Assembly: GCA_947499005.1 (NCBI GenBank)
Contig: CANMML010000001.1
Coordinates: 124,001-188,000, forward strand
Direction of reading: 5' to 3'
DNA length: 64,000 nt
DNA from: an uncultured Aquimarina sp.
GTDB lineage: Bacteria; Bacteroidota; Bacteroidia; Flavobacteriales; Flavobacteriaceae
Shown here piece after piece: positions 58,444 through 64,000 of this stretch. Every line of letters begins with the position of its first letter. Within the stretch, counting starts at the first letter, position 1. The translations under genes and the position numbers were made by a program. The notes below the pieces were generated by a model, which saw only the letters and a program-made list of their open reading frames with translations, did not search any database and had not been told where the DNA came from.

Positions 58444-59769
58444 TTATTTTTCATACCAATTTACATTTCGTGTTAAATACATTGTCAATGCTAAAGTGAT
58501 GACTAGCCCAACCGTTCCAATTAGTAATGCATAGGCCGTTAATTGAAGCGTAACGAAAATGAAAGCATATACAGAGGCAAGCACAAACATGGTAACAAAA
58601 GCAATTGACTTTTGTTTTTTAAATAGATGCAGACTATAGGCTGTTGTAATTAATAGAATTGTAGCACTTGAAATTAGATAAGCAATATTGAAATTAGAAT
58701 GTTCGGAAATAGATATTAATAATAAGTAAAACAAACAAAGCCCTCCCCCTATAAGTAGCAATTGAAATGGATGTGTTTTAATTTTACTGATTAATTCTAC
58801 CAGAAAGAATACTAAAAAAGTGAGTCCTATGGTTAATATTCCATATTTAATACTTCGAATGGTCTTTTGATAATCATCAATAGGTAATCTCAAGTCGATA
58901 CCAAAAGTACTTTCAGATACAGCATTAAAAGGTTCACTTTTATTCCATATTTGTGGAAAGCTCCTATTGAGTTCAAGCACTTCCCATTCGGCAACAAAGC
59001 CGTTATTATCTATTTTTCGTTTTTTAGGTAAGAATTGACCAAAAAAGCTTGGGCTATTCCAATTAGAATTAATACCAATTTTTGTAGTTCTTCCTAGTGG
59101 TACAAAATTAATTTGTTGACTTCCTTTAAGGTCTAAATCCAAGGCAAATGAATGTGGTTTTTCAAGATCAATGGCTGTTAAGTCTATAGGAAATGTCACT
59201 CCATTTGTAAGTATATTCCGAAGAGAATAGTCTATACCTGCTACGGGTATAATTTCTTTTTCATTAAATGTTAACTGCAGTTTTGTAGAGATCCCTTTTA
59301 AATCTTGAATTTCAAAACTAGCTTTGGCCTTTTCCCATAGAATAGTGTATTCATTGCTATGATACTCTTCCATACTGGGCAATTTGAAAAAACCACTAGT
59401 ATGTAAATCGGCTTCATATACCACAATATTGTAAATCCCTCTCTTAAGGTTTTCAGGATTTATTGATCCATTTATATTAAGCTCTTCGGGCAATATATGA
59501 ATGTATTCTTTTGATGGGGCTACATCTTTTATAGAAGACTTTTTAAGTATAGGAATGGTAATGATAGGGCCACTTATTTTTTGAATACCAGCCCATTTTT
59601 TATTGGTTTCAAGAATGGCTGTTTCTCTTAACTGATTGCGTTCCTTGATCGTGTTTTTAATCATTGATAAAGGGATCAGTAGCAATAGTACAATGATCGC
59701 TGTACCAAGAGCTTTTACAATGATTGGGTTTTTTAAAGGAGATCTATATTCTTTAATTTCCGTATCCAT
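58444..59769 (-). CDS. CreD-like inner membrane protein
   Basis: 441 residues. One N-terminal membrane segment (about 15-32), a large extracytoplasmic domain with NKKWAGIQKISGPIITIPI (about 45-63, the CreD signature region), and five to six C-terminal membrane segments (about 310-430). In enterobacteria CreD belongs to the CreBC regulon and affects envelope integrity and colicin tolerance; here no CreBC is nearby. A 17-bp palindrome ACTTTGAAATTCAAAGT sits 18 bp before its ATG, shared with two neighbouring units, suggesting control by the local winged-helix regulator. Confidence 0.85.
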   Translation of the reverse strand: MDTEIKEYRSPLKNPIIVKALGTAIIVLLLLIPLSMIKNTIKERNQLRETAILETNKKWAGIQKISGPIITIPILKKSSIKDVAPSKEYIHILPEELNINGSINPENLKRGIYNIVVYEADLHTSGFFKLPSMEEYHSNEYTILWEKAKASFEIQDLKGISTKLQLTFNEKEIIPVAGIDYSLRNILTNGVTFPIDLTAIDLEKPHSFALDLDLKGSQQINFVPLGRTTKIGINSNWNSPSFFGQFLPKKRKIDNNGFVAEWEVLELNRSFPQIWNKSEPFNAVSESTFGIDLRLPIDDYQKTIRSIKYGILTIGLTFLVFFLVELISKIKTHPFQLLLIGGGLCLFYLLLISISEHSNFNIAYLISSATILLITTAYSLHLFKKQKSIAFVTMFVLASVYAFIFVTLQLTAYALLIGTVGLVITLALTMYLTRNVNWYEK

Positions 59770-59786
59770 AATGTTATTTTTAAAGT

Positions 59787-59803
59787 ACTTTGAAATTCAA
59801 AGT
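59787..59803. promoter_or_regulatory. Operator 1 (ACTTTGAAATTCAAAGT) before the creD-like gene
   Basis: Perfect 6-bp half-sites ACTTTG/CAAAGT around AAATT, centred about 26 bp before the start codon. Same position relative to the start as operator 2. Confidence 0.7.
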
Positions 59804-59842
59804 GTGTAGTTAAAAAAATAGTTACTTGTTCTTTTTAAGTGA

Positions 59843-60607
59843 TTAAGTGGTGAGATTTAAAATGGATCTTTTCATATTCTTTGGGGTTATTGTGGTGTGC
59901 GAGTGTATATATTTTAGAGTATTGAAATACTTATAGCACATTTGCTTCATAAAACTAGTTTTATTCAATTTACCAGCGATAAAGGCTTTTTTGTGTCCAA
60001 ACCATACTGTATGGATCGTTAAAAAGAATAATATGCTATACCCTATCAAGCTCAATATTTTTGAATAAAATGTCTTTTGATTAAAGATGATATGCAGTCT
60101 TTCATTTTGAAATTTTATATGATGCGCTTCATCAATTAAGATGTCTTTACAAATGCTTTTCAATAATTCGCAATTTGTTGCTTGTTCTAAAGACTTGTAA
60201 AATAATTGAGCTGCGGATTCTACAATAATTACTGTAATCGTCCAAAGTTCCATATTGGTATTGAAATATCTTATTTTTCTAAATAAGGTATCTCCCCAAT
60301 CTTTTGACTTTCTAGATTCTCCTATAAGATCAATATACTTTCCTAGATTACTTCCGTGCTTTTGCTCTTCTTTGATAAAGAGCTTAACGGCTTCTATATA
60401 TTCTAGATCATTGATTTCATGAGCGTATTTAGATGTGGCTTTAAGTAAGTGACTGCCATCACTTGTTTCGCCCAGCTGCCAGGCTTTTAATGAATACAAT
60501 ATTTGTGTTTTTTCATGTTCCGTGATATTAGGGTTAATGCCCCAATCTATCCTTTGGTTTTTTAAGTTGTTTTCAAAATGATTTTTCCAAAATAACGAAG
60601 TATGCAT
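59843..60607 (-). CDS. Membrane-anchored ferritin-like diiron protein, unknown role
   Basis: 254 residues. Four helices carry the full carboxylate-bridged diiron set: E47, E81-x-x-H84 (EEQKH), E130 (IIVESAAQLF) and E160-x-x-H163 (DEAHH). This E...ExxH...E...ExxH pattern is shared by diiron oxygenases and oxidases (RNR R2, COQ7, AurF-like). After it comes one membrane segment (about 185-203) and a basic C-terminal tail. The exact family was not recognised. It has its own operator (60625-60641), identical in placement to that of the creD-like gene. Possible role: oxidation or detoxification at the membrane; this is inference. Confidence 0.7.
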   Translation of the reverse strand: MHTSLFWKNHFENNLKNQRIDWGINPNITEHEKTQILYSLKAWQLGETSDGSHLLKATSKYAHEINDLEYIEAVKLFIKEEQKHGSNLGKYIDLIGESRKSKDWGDTLFRKIRYFNTNMELWTITVIIVESAAQLFYKSLEQATNCELLKSICKDILIDEAHHIKFQNERLHIIFNQKTFYSKILSLIGYSILFFLTIHTVWFGHKKAFIAGKLNKTSFMKQMCYKYFNTLKYIHSHTTITPKNMKRSILNLTT

Positions 60608-60624
60608 GTCATAAATATTAAAGT

Positions 60625-60641
60625 ACTTTGAAATACAAAGT
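60625..60641. promoter_or_regulatory. Operator 2 (ACTTTGAAATACAAAGT) before the diiron gene
   Basis: Half-sites ACTTTG/CAAAGT; flank AAGT upstream is shared with operator 1 (AAAGTACTTTGAAAT). 18 bp before the start codon. Confidence 0.7.
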
Positions 60642-60657
60642 ATATGTTTAAAAATTT

Positions 60658-60948
60658 TTATTTTAATAATTCTTCAATCGCTTTTAAGTGTTTTTTAAAA
60701 GCAATTTTGCCTTCCTGTGTTGCGGAATAAGTGGTTTTAGGTTTTCTAGATTCAAAAGTTTTTTCATAGGTGATGTACATTTTATTTTCTAAATATTTCA
60801 AGTGACTGGCAAGGTTACCATCGGTAACACCGAGAATTTCTTTAAAAGAATTAAAGTCATAGCGATCATTTACCACAAGAATGCTCATGATACCTAATCG
60901 AATTTTATTTTCGAATGCTTTATTAAAATTGGATAATAAATTTTTCAA
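60658..60948 (-). CDS. Winged-helix transcriptional regulator (ArsR/MarR-like small HTH)
   Basis: 96 residues, almost only a winged helix-turn-helix: NKIRLGIMSILVVNDRYDFNSFKEILGVTDGNLASHLKYLENKMYITYEKTF, followed by the wing YSATQEGKIAF and a short helix. It has no sensor domain of its own. Starts 4 bp after the stop of the membrane-protein gene, so the two form an operon. Likely binds the ACTTTG-N5-CAAAGT palindromes at 59787, 60625 and 61568. Confidence 0.85.
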   Translation of the reverse strand: MKNLLSNFNKAFENKIRLGIMSILVVNDRYDFNSFKEILGVTDGNLASHLKYLENKMYITYEKTFESRKPKTTYSATQEGKIAFKKHLKAIEELLK

Positions 60949-60951
60949 AAC

Positions 60952-61557
60952 CTATGGATATTTAACCTTCATAATAATTCCATAAACGATATGGAGTACA
61001 CCAAAACCTAGAGCCCACAAAAATAAGCCGTAACCAGGGAAATATATTCCAACAAGACCTAGAATAATTTCTAGGACTCCTAGACTTTTTAATTCTTTAA
61101 GAGTGTATTTACTAGCATTAATTAGTGATAAACCATAAACAACGAGCATCATAGGAGAAATCAAAAGCATATAGCCTTTTATGTAAAAAAGGGGTATTAT
61201 CATTCCTCCAAGTATTAGAGGGAGGGCAAAATTAGAAATGAGCTGTTTGCTTTGTGTATTCCATGTAGTCGTTCCTTCTTTTTTTGCTTTCTTATGAGTA
61301 AAAATATATCCTAGTAATAATGAGATTACAAGAGTAAGAGCAGCTACTAAAGCCAGATTAAAGTGAAGTTTTGCTGTGCTACCATACCAACCTAATGGTG
61401 ATGTGAAGACAATAAAGTGTGTAACAAAAGCAGCTACTAAAGCAATACTACCAATTGCAATACCTGACCAACCACTCAAAGACATAAATCTTGAAGATTG
61501 ATTCATCATACTTTTGATGTCCTTTAGGTCGTTTATGTAATCTATTTCTTCTTTCAT
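60952..61557 (-). CDS. Polytopic membrane protein cotranscribed with the winged-helix regulator
   Basis: 201 residues from ATG 61557 (MKEEIDYINDLKDIKSMM); a TTG eight codons upstream would start inside the operator palindrome and is disfavoured. Six membrane segments follow a cytoplasmic helix of about 35 residues. No family recognised beyond resemblance to short bacterial membrane proteins adjoining HTH regulators, where they are suspected to act as signal partners of the regulator. The operator 61568-61584 lies 10 bp upstream of the start. Confidence 0.65.
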   Translation of the reverse strand: MKEEIDYINDLKDIKSMMNQSSRFMSLSGWSGIAIGSIALVAAFVTHFIVFTSPLGWYGSTAKLHFNLALVAALTLVISLLLGYIFTHKKAKKEGTTTWNTQSKQLISNFALPLILGGMIIPLFYIKGYMLLISPMMLVVYGLSLINASKYTLKELKSLGVLEIILGLVGIYFPGYGLFLWALGFGVLHIVYGIIMKVKYP

Positions 61558-61567
61558 TTTAAAAAGA

Positions 61568-61584
61568 ACTTTGTAATTCAAAGT
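61568..61584. promoter_or_regulatory. Operator 3 (ACTTTGTAATTCAAAGT) before the membrane protein-regulator operon
   Basis: Perfect ACTTTG/CAAAGT half-sites, spacer TAATT. Suggests the regulator controls its own operon. Confidence 0.7.
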
Positions 61585-61749: not shown

Positions 61750-64000
61750 ATGAAATTCTGTAAAAAATTACAGAGGCTGGCTTTATTGCTAGTGCTCTGT
61801 AATCTCAATGCTTTATGTTTTTCAGTACATGCTCAACGTATTGGAGATCCTAATTTGAGATTTGACAATTCTAAAAATGACCCAGCCTATCCCTACATGA
61901 GTGAATGGCAAAAAGCAGGTGTACAAGGCGGTATTCCTTTTAGATCTACTAGCCCTATTAAACGTAGGATAGACCCAACAAATTCAGATGGTATTCAACG
62001 TGCGATCGATCAAACGAATACGGATGGAAGGCCTGCGGTAATTCTTCTTAAGCGAGGAACGTATACGATCAATAAATCTATAAGAATGAAATCGAATATC
62101 ATTCTTAGAGGAGAAGATAAAAATGCAGTTAAATTAAATGTTACCATTCGCTCAGATGGAGATAGATCTCGTACTGCTTTAGAATTTAGGAATGTCTCTA
62201 AAGCCGCTTTAGAAGATATGAGTTTCGAATATATTCCGCCCAAATCAATAACGCTTTACGACGATAGAAATGTTGATAGGAATAAATTTTGTGGCGATCG
62301 GTGCTTTGGAAACAACCCAGGAGGAGAGCGTAACATGTATGTCTCATTTTTAAAGATGGATAGAGGTACGAAAAACTGTTGGGTAGACAATTGTAATTTC
62401 AAAAATTCGGGGACAGACCCTTTTGAGATTAGTGCAAATAACAACACCTTTAGAAGAAATTTTGTAGATGCTTGTTTCAACAAAGGAGGGGGAGGAAATG
62501 GATATTATGATATCAAAGGAGATTATAATTTAATAACTGATGAAAGAGTAAGACGTATTCGACATTTTGCGATTCAGAATGGGGCAAAATACAATGTCGT
62601 TATTGGCTGTAATTTTGAAGTTGATGTCAATTTTCATAATGGAGATGATGGTTTTAATTTAGTTGAAGGTAATGTTGTCAAGAGTGAGCGTTGGAGATCA
62701 TGGGGGGCTTTTGCATCTGGAGGAGCTAGATTTGGTCATGATAGACCTGGGAATAACAATATTATATTTAATAATGAAAGTAGTGGAAGAGGAAGCTCTG
62801 CTGATTTTTCAAGTGATAGGAAAGTCTTTGTTTTTGATCAATATAGCGAACCAAGATTACTAAATAATAATCCACCACGAGGGAATACTTTCTATCCTGT
62901 TATTTTAAATGGAGGAGGTTCAACTCCACCGCCACCACCGCCACCTTCTGGAGGAGGAGATTCTGGGAATTCTAATGATTTGGCTCGTGGTAAATCAGCC
63001 TTTCAATCGAGTACATATTCTTCAAATACAGGTGCTGATAAAGCTGTAGACGGAAATGAGAGTACATTTAATCATACTCAAAAGGAAAACAACCCTTGGT
63101 GGGAAGTTGATTTGGGAAGTATAAAGAATATCAAGGAAGTTAAAATATGGAATAGAGGCGATTGTTGTCAAAATCGTTTAAGCAATTTTGATATACGTAT
63201 TTACAATAGCCGTGGAGGAAATCAAGTGAAATCGGTATCTGTATCAGGGCAACCTAGTGCTAATGGAAGTACATATCAAATCAATGCATCTGGACGTGTT
63301 GTTAGAGTACAGTTAAGAGGAAATGATAGATTTCTCCATATGGATCAAATTAGTGTTATCGAAGGCAGTGCTTCAAATGACAATAATAATGATGATGGAG
63401 CTCCTTTTGGTAAGGTAATATCATTAAAGAAATCGGGAGGAGATAAACGTTATGTTACTGTTGAAAATAATAATGAATTAGTTGCCAATAGAACTAGAGT
63501 AGGAACTTGGGAAAAGTTTCGTGTAGACCAGCATCCAAGTGGCGGTGTAGCTTTATTCTCACTAAAAAATAATAAATATGTGCAGTCTAATGGTACAAGT
63601 ACTAGCAGTGCTTTACGTGCTCAAGGAAATAGTCCTAGAGGTTGGGAACGGTTCCGTTGGCAAAGTAAAGGAGCAGGAAAAGTAGCTTTATATAGTTACA
63701 CGGTTAAAAAATGGGTGCAAGCCTCATGGAGAACAGATAACGCTAAAGTAATTCCTAGAGGAAATGAAGATCGAGGTTGGGAAACATTTGAATGGAAAGA
63801 GGTTTCGGGTAAATTGACAGAAGATGCAATTACAGATATTTCGTTGTTGGCATATCCAAATCCTGTATTAAATGGATCAGTAACTTTAAAAGGGCTAACG
63901 GAAGGAACTATTAGAATTATAGATGTATCGGGGCAAATGATTCAGGAAATTCCAGTAGAAAATTCACAGTTGGTATTGGATGTTAGTAATTTTCAATCAG
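61750..64000 (+). CDS. Large secreted beta-helix protein with F5/8C, fascin-like and T9SS domains (3' truncated by the window)
   Basis: Open from ATG 61750 to the window end: 750 codons without a stop. Signal peptide (1-29, ..CFSVHAQ). Residues about 45-385: right-handed parallel beta-helix, pectate-lyase superfamily type (DGIQRAIDQTN, repeated RNVSKAALEDMSFEY-like and NCWVDNCNFKNS rungs). A GGG/poly-Pro linker is near 390-405. Residues about 410-540: F5/8-type C (galactose-binding/CBM32-47) domain, DLARGKSAFQSS then AVDGNEST..WWEVDLG. Residues about 553-690: fascin-like beta-trefoil with KVISLKKSGGDKRYVTVEN. The start of a T9SS type A sorting domain is at about 695-750 (LLAYPNPVLNGSVTLKGL). 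Probably a surface or secreted polysaccharide-degrading enzyme, substrate unknown. Confidence 0.85.
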   Translation, partial: MKFCKKLQRLALLLVLCNLNALCFSVHAQRIGDPNLRFDNSKNDPAYPYMSEWQKAGVQGGIPFRSTSPIKRRIDPTNSDGIQRAIDQTNTDGRPAVILLKRGTYTINKSIRMKSNIILRGEDKNAVKLNVTIRSDGDRSRTALEFRNVSKAALEDMSFEYIPPKSITLYDDRNVDRNKFCGDRCFGNNPGGERNMYVSFLKMDRGTKNCWVDNCNFKNSGTDPFEISANNNTFRRNFVDACFNKGGGGNGYYDIKGDYNLITDERVRRIRHFAIQNGAKYNVVIGCNFEVDVNFHNGDDGFNLVEGNVVKSERWRSWGAFASGGARFGHDRPGNNNIIFNNESSGRGSSADFSSDRKVFVFDQYSEPRLLNNNPPRGNTFYPVILNGGGSTPPPPPPPSGGGDSGNSNDLARGKSAFQSSTYSSNTGADKAVDGNESTFNHTQKENNPWWEVDLGSIKNIKEVKIWNRGDCCQNRLSNFDIRIYNSRGGNQVKSVSVSGQPSANGSTYQINASGRVVRVQLRGNDRFLHMDQISVIEGSASNDNNNDDGAPFGKVISLKKSGGDKRYVTVENNNELVANRTRVGTWEKFRVDQHPSGGVALFSLKNNKYVQSNGTSTSSALRAQGNSPRGWERFRWQSKGAGKVALYSYTVKKWVQASWRTDNAKVIPRGNEDRGWETFEWKEVSGKLTEDAITDISLLAYPNPVLNGSVTLKGLTEGTIRIIDVSGQMIQEIPVENSQLVLDVSNFQS

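Follow-up and report, generated by a model that had tools for sequence, protein, structure and literature searches.

A predicted self-regulated envelope regulon of an HTH_34 winged-helix protein and its conserved three-part operator in Bacteroidota

In the window, a 64,000-nucleotide stretch of DNA from an uncultured Aquimarina sp., three minus-strand units are each preceded by a copy of the same operator-like element, and one of these units encodes a membrane protein together with a small winged-helix regulator of the Pfam family HTH_34. Judging from sequence comparison, we consider it highly likely that they form a self-regulated envelope regulon, with the HTH_34 protein as an autorepressor whose operator would cover the -7 element and the start point of transcription. 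Through this predicted three-part site, the regulator and the membrane protein very probably repress both their own gene and a group of cell-envelope genes. The system recurs in many families of a phylum that is very likely Bacteroidota. The features of the locus are listed below.

58444..59769, minus strand: CreD, an inner membrane protein (PF06123, E=2.9e-138)
59782..59803, minus strand: operator 1 (creD), ACTTTGAATTTCAAAGTACTTT in gene direction, an exact match to the phylum-wide 22-mer
59812..59818, minus strand: T-tract upstream of operator 1, at the same position as the T-tract conserved in target promoters
59843..60607, minus strand: ferritin-like, diiron-oxidase-like protein with a C-terminal hydrophobic helix and the predicted ligands E47, E81/H84, E130 and E160/H163
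60620..60641, minus strand: operator 2 (ferritin-like gene), ACTTTGTATTTCAAAGTACTTT, an exact match to the phylum-wide 22-mer
60650..60654, minus strand: T-tract upstream of operator 2, placed on the same basis as that of operator 1
60658..60948, minus strand: winged-helix regulator, Pfam HTH_34, 96 aa, TTG start (PF13601, E=5.1e-28)
60952..61557, minus strand: membrane protein co-encoded with the regulator, 201 aa, with a long N-terminal helix and further helices
61563..61584, minus strand: operator 3 (membrane protein and regulator operon), ACTTTGAATTACAAAGTTCTTT, with all three half-sites present

The first-pass annotation of this DNA had described three identical palindromes, at 59787-59803, 60625-60641 and 61568-61584. 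The sequences were found at these positions and their arms are identical, but the 5-base centres differ (AAATT, AAATA and TAATT). The spacing of 18 bp given for creD and the ferritin-like gene was off by one: 17 bases separate the site from the ATG in both cases (ATG at 59769 and 60607), and 10 bases separate it from the ATG of the membrane protein (61557). The assignments of the creD and regulator genes held in profile searches. The flank AAAGT, which had been noted as shared by two of the sites, reads ACTTT in the gene direction and proved to be a third half-site kept in nearly all relatives.

In the direction of the gene, ACTTT follows the palindrome at sites 1 and 2 and TCTTT at site 3, and the operator is a 22-bp element, CTTTg-N6-AAAG-NN-CTTT, whose third half-site points toward the gene. 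Operator 3 has TTCTTT where the 22-mer has TACTTT and is therefore an inexact match to the latter. Flank profiles were built at 88 loci from 84 sites that precede the membrane protein and 86 that come after the regulator; these sites were chosen by the exact 17-mer only, so that invariance of the arms is there by construction. The third CTTT was conserved at 95-100% and the preceding A at 90%. A second set consisted of best-hit sites with up to three mismatches, obtained at 105 of 106 loci (L228 and L229 had been excluded beforehand). Here CTTT at positions 1-4 and AAAG at positions 12-15 were invariant, and the third half-site (positions 18-21) showed C, T, T and T in 105, 105, 104 and 102 of the 105 sites, respectively; AAAAGT replaced CAAAGT in five sites. 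From this conservation of CTTT, AAAG and CTTT we concluded that the operator is tripartite. The 17-bp palindrome proposed earlier is a real site, but in its plain form it is incomplete. An additional contact or an additional dimer is suggested by the third half-site; a tripartite site is not simply derived from one dimer, and this counts against our preferred reading.

In the assembly (4,163,503 bases, 190 contigs), the pattern ACTTTG-N5-CAAAGT is matched exactly three times, each time inside the same 1.8-kb stretch, and the reversed-pattern control has no match. Base composition predicts about 0.46 exact matches per assembly, and the 18 one-mismatch matches predict 0.50; that at least three should fall within any one stretch of 1.8 kb has a probability of about 6e-9 to 8e-9. 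When the third half-site was included and one mismatch allowed, there were 25 matches in the assembly: the three exact ones are the sites in the window, and the remaining 22, each with one mismatch, are at background level (control 23). A shuffle test allowing three mismatches (6 matches versus 7.0 expected) was uninformative at that tolerance. Random frequency of the motif genome-wide, which the first-pass annotation had named as a refutation of its own idea, was not what we found, and the idea survived. Three exact sites in one 1.8-kb stretch, with about 0.5 expected in the whole assembly, also rule out chance repeats. Mobile or REP-like repeats were rejected because the sites stand at a constant position in front of the same genes across many genera, and because the source genome contains no further exact copies.

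Co-occurrence of the site with the regulator was examined in 149 genomes of the family of the window (taken as Flavobacteriaceae) and in a draw of 395 genomes of the phylum (taken as Bacteroidota) that partly overlaps the former; all counts ignore shared ancestry. At least two exact sites were present in 70 of the 75 family genomes with the membrane protein versus 2 of the 74 without it (Fisher 1e-33, genomes being counted without correction for shared ancestry), and 68 of the 75 have two or three sites. The HTH_34 regulator was detected at E<=1e-20 in 75 of the 149 genomes, each with at least one exact site; these are the 74 genomes with an intact membrane-protein locus plus G119, which has the regulator but not the membrane protein and carries one site before the regulator. 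The element lies directly upstream of the membrane protein at all 74 intact loci, exactly in 70 cases and with one mismatch in 4. At 71 of these loci there is a second exact 17-mer after the regulator, the exceptions being L089, L122 and L134. In G121 the site is missing at the locus, the membrane-protein gene has four internal stops and the regulator is reduced to a fragment; this is a natural loss, which we count in favour of the proposed regulon. Site and winged-helix neighbour, which the earlier annotation had suggested looking for in related genomes, therefore co-occur across genera. The same was seen when the motif played no part in the choice of loci: at 13 of 13 named-genome loci chosen by the regulator protein (Aquimarina, Agaribacillus, Mucilaginibacter, Cytophagales and others), one site precedes the membrane protein and another follows the regulator. 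At L045, the closest named locus, which is from an uncultured Aquimarina, the regulator is 95% identical to that of the window and the three-site layout is the same; the family and phylum given for the genomes compared were taken from this locus.

Some sites occur without the system. G013 has two sites, with centres that are not A/T-only, and neither the membrane protein nor the regulator. G034 has two sites without the membrane protein; one, about 1 kb from a gene that neighbours the regulator locus elsewhere, is perhaps a relic, and the other looks like a chance match. At L166 (position 6045), in a genome without the system, a lone 17-mer lies about 1 kb from a gene adjoining the regulator locus in many relatives and is a possible relic operator.

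Across the phylum, 80 of the 395 genomes contain the exact 22-mer and none contains its reversed control. Of these 80, 75 encode the membrane protein and the other 5 the regulator. By eye, the 22-mer is at the membrane-protein locus in 66 of the 75 and only elsewhere in 9. Among the 5 genomes with the regulator only, four have it no more than about 1 kb away from the regulator gene, and in the fifth (G161) it is on another contig, a plain 17-mer lying about 0.7 kb from the regulator. The membrane protein is present in 122 of the 395 genomes, 47 of which have no exact 22-mer, and the distant loci that we inspected suggest variants of the element there rather than its absence. Among 20 loci chosen by the membrane protein and hand-picked to span distant families, 18 have the element with at most three mismatches in the stretch tested, a level reached by 0 of 400 shuffles. 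These 18 include a weak homologue (L237), whose element has three mismatches. The other two loci have exact sites nearby, at the operon head (L228) and just inside a mis-called start (L229). For L231 the gene start was set by hand just after its site, as the called ORF began upstream. The regulon, described earlier as private, is so inside the source genome; the system, like its operator, nevertheless extends across the phylum.

The regulator scored 97.5 bits against PF13601 over the full length of the profile (1-80; curated cut-off 27) and is a member of HTH_34. The recognition-helix motif TDGNLASH is invariant in 8 aligned regulators; some distant regulators have TDGNLATH. In a second regulator consensus the invariance of this motif is partly built in, as the search pattern held the recognition-helix core; the 8-sequence alignment is free of that. 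For the membrane protein, the profile search gave no Pfam family over its cut-off. Its predicted structure (pLDDT 83) consists of the long N-terminal helix and further helices, and a search with this structure gave no PDB fold match at E<=0.001. The only other PF13601 match in the assembly (C6:118872) is a PadR-family gene, with a score of 69 on the PadR profile, so that a second HTH_34 regulator in the assembly was ruled out. Directly after this true PadR gene (C6 at about 118.9 kb; L164 1384-2405) comes the gene of a membrane protein for which no Pfam family exceeded its cut-off, and the pair makes up a second dyad of winged-helix and membrane protein in the source genome.

By sequence, the nearest solved structure of the regulator is PH1061 (1ub9; E=1.3e-7), which has a related DNA-binding domain. 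We know of no operator or target of PH1061, whereas the regulator in the window has a predicted operator and a predicted target set. Small winged-helix and membrane-protein genes are likewise combined in one operon in the reported dyads of PadR-like proteins with HAAS-domain proteins (PMC11237479), in the Listeria PadR repressors LstR and LltR of membrane-protein operons (PMC6624303) and in BC4206-BC4207 of B. cereus, a pair described as induced by a bacteriocin (PMC2774856). As far as these descriptions go, self-regulation (here predicted) and a link to the cell envelope are common to them and the system in the window, in which we saw the same gene order and a conserved operator-like site at its own operon. 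The defining domains differ: the regulator reached just 17.7 bits with the PadR profile, below the cut-off of 27, and the membrane protein gave no HAAS match at E<=0.01. A further difference may lie in the operator, which is here tripartite and phylum-wide. By analogy, the system probably works like the PadR-HAAS dyads but lacks the domains that define them.

Placement of the operator relative to the promoter was judged by reference to other flavobacteria. Promoters of F. johnsoniae are reported to carry TAHHTTTG at -12 to -5, together with AT-rich stretches at -18 and -28 (PMC6847099); in F. psychrophilum the median leader is 24 bp long, and a TAnnTTGY motif occurs more rarely (PMC9723704). 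If the TTTG in the first half-site is placed at -8 to -5, the operator would span about -10 to +12. TTG was present in the -33 region of 49 of 84 membrane-protein sites (shuffled 8%) versus 4 of 86 second sites (shuffled 6%), and a tract of at least five T at -17 to -8 of the site was present at 78 of 86 second sites (shuffles 1.3%) and 5 of 84 membrane-protein sites (shuffled 4%). The T-tract would thereby lie at about -27 to -18 and TTG at about -35 to -33, a predicted placement that fits the published flavobacterial promoter map. As the upstream elements differ by site class, one operator appears to be fused to two promoter types; site 3 of the window itself has no TTG element. Among the membrane-protein sites, 16 of 84 have the full TAHHTTTG, in which TTTG is fixed; among the second sites, 11 of 86 do. 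Since the consensus A at -11 of TAnnTTTG is mostly missing, the exact register of the -7 element is inferred and uncertain. Use of the third half-site as the -7 box was ruled out by eye, the expected G being G in at most 3%. The comparative data thus favour a placement of the operator over the promoter, as had been proposed from its overlap with a possible -7 element.

Genes behind the operator are mostly of envelope type. CreD scored 461.8 bits with PF06123 and 446.6 bits with the equivalog NF008712 (cut-off 275), and belongs to both. It is encoded in 48 of the 149 family genomes, and in 45 of these creD is in the regulator locus, on the same contig as the membrane protein and at most 3.4 kb away; all 45 have the regulator, and creD is outside the locus in G016, G053 and G109. 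In E. coli, CreD is governed by the CreBC two-component system. There too it is a regulated inner membrane protein, whereas a putative one-component repressor operator precedes creD in the window. A Stenotrophomonas homologue is reported to confer antibiotic resistance in E. coli.

The 59843-60607 product has no Pfam match. Its ligand columns E, ExxH, E and ExxH are invariant in 4 aligned sequences, and the predicted fold, with a helical core (pLDDT 81), is nearest to R2-like ligand-binding oxidase (E=2.3e-4). It shares predicted fold and diiron ligand pattern with this oxidase and with aldehyde-deformylating oxygenase, at about 12-17% identity and TM-scores of about 0.5-0.7, and on these models it qualifies as a ferritin-like diiron oxidase with predicted metal binding. 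A score of 17.6 bits with the NCBIfam R2lox model (cut-off 194) places it outside the R2lox family. The gene recurs beside the regulon in L045, L046, L047 and L227.

After the 86 second sites, the next gene encodes CreD (44), a Coq4-like protein (16), DUF4153 (11), the small membrane protein family c9 (3), an MpaB-like protein (2), the diiron-like protein (2) or others (5), and in 3 cases no gene was called within 120 nt; most of these sites therefore precede CreD or other envelope-type genes. SanA/DUF218, DUF1361 and DUF2809 are encoded further downstream at some loci, the SanA match being below the NCBIfam cut-off and DUF218 above the Pfam cut-off. Pfam names rest on one representative per cluster, and ORFs around loci and unlinked sites are mechanical calls. 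Unlinked 22-mer sites gave a similar picture. Twenty were hand-picked from 32 listed (counted by eye), and 16 of them are within 160 nt of a called gene start. Ten directly precede a family that the regulator locus also encodes, namely c9 in six cases, Coq4-like in two, and CreD and DUF2809 in one each; two precede a C92 amidase-like gene followed by Coq4-like genes, one precedes a DoxX/MauE-like gene (below cut-off), and four, as judged by eye, precede a family of 110-aa membrane proteins, L205 at 201 nt. Four of the 20 are without a called gene start within 160 nt, and at L204, L207 and L213 there is none within 390 nt. The 110-aa family was seen after the operator at L202, L205, L208 and L210, and the member scanned (L202) has no Pfam match. 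The c9 family, with a motif like VPLVAMQFTxEVNW, is found repeatedly behind the 22-mer away from the locus (L203, L209, L211, L212, L215 and L217); its member at L215 has a weak likeness to HAAS_TM (E=0.012, below cut-off). The earlier proposal of an envelope or metal/oxygen response thus fared unevenly: the envelope is the common theme of the site-adjacent families and is favoured by the comparative data, while a metal/oxygen response is weakly hinted at by the diiron-like, MpaB-like and Coq4-like genes.

Based on these comparisons, we infer that the HTH_34 protein, probably as a dimer, binds the 22-bp operator through CTTTg, AAAG and CTTT. Bound over the -7 element and the start point, it would block RNA polymerase at its own operon, shared with the membrane protein, and at the operons of its targets, here those of creD and the diiron-oxidase-like gene and elsewhere those of DUF4153, DUF1361, DUF2809, Coq4-like, SanA/DUF218, MpaB-like and C92 amidase-like genes. 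Half-sites about 10-11 bp apart would place a winged-helix dimer on a single face of the DNA, above the -7 element and the start point, which argues for repression, including self-repression; the self-regulation proposed earlier is likewise favoured by the comparative data. The membrane protein accompanies the regulator in 74 of 75 family genomes and is a natural candidate for sensing the signal. It would most likely act as a sensor or as a regulator of the HTH_34 protein and lift repression upon disturbance of the envelope. More tentatively, the system may be an envelope-stress switch of Bacteroidota that needs neither kinase nor sigma factor, in which the membrane protein responds to damage of the membrane or of lipid carriers by retaining or freeing the HTH_34 repressor, and the latter reads an ancient, almost invariant operator fused to the core promoter; we regard this as a possibility rather than the probable outcome.

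Three other explanations were weighed against an HTH_34 autorepressor. The motif occupies the place of a -7 box and might itself be the core promoter of an alternative sigma factor, for example of the SM5 type (TAnnTTGY) of F. psychrophilum, whose promoters are reported to serve LPS and gliding genes, among others (PMC9723704). TAnnTTGY is present in 57 of 84 membrane-protein sites; since the fixed operator leaves two bases of it free, this count argues weakly for a sigma factor, and the sequence is present in only 16 of 86 second sites. Moreover, genomes with the membrane protein mostly have two or three sites (68 of 75), site presence follows the HTH_34 gene, and the conserved bases reach about +12 with dyad symmetry. 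We therefore think a sigma-factor promoter improbable. To much the same degree, it is unlikely that the site is the operator of a regulator encoded elsewhere and the HTH_34 gene merely a target: a gene in a regulon may itself encode a regulator, but the sites track the HTH_34 gene genome by genome, and the site persists in G119 without the membrane-protein gene.

The inverted repeat might instead act as an RNA hairpin in the 5' leader and control translation, as its arms could pair in RNA and the site is usually about 10-20 nt from the start codon. Among 105 sites, however, 14 arm pairs vary, with 0 compensatory and 12 broken; with the start inferred near operator position 10, the left arm would be untranscribed, and the third half-site is equally conserved though it lies outside the hairpin. 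The lack of compensatory changes led us to reject the hairpin, whose probability we consider very slight indeed.

We found no description of this operator or regulon in the literature searched, which was mostly outside subscription journals. To our knowledge, little of the local control of transcription in Bacteroidota has been mapped beyond sugar utilisation. With an HTH_34 autorepressor, a regulator, its operator and its gene set become predictable from one locus and traceable through the phylum; CreD gains a candidate regulator in the family of the window, where creD is in the locus in 45 of 48 CreD-bearing genomes; and DUF4153, DUF1361, DUF2809 and the unnamed membrane protein can be grouped in one testable envelope programme. 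Constancy of the operator across families offers a simple reporter handle for finding the signal. If the stress-switch proposal were true, CreD, SanA/DUF218, DUF4153, DUF1361, DUF2809 and the oxygenase-like proteins (Coq4-like, MpaB-like and R2lox-like) would belong to one barrier-repair programme, and several unknown families would share a function.

A divergent gene at 61750-63999, cut by the end of the window, encodes a secreted protein with a pectate-lyase-like part (below cut-off), an F5/8 type C domain and a Por-type C-terminal sorting domain.
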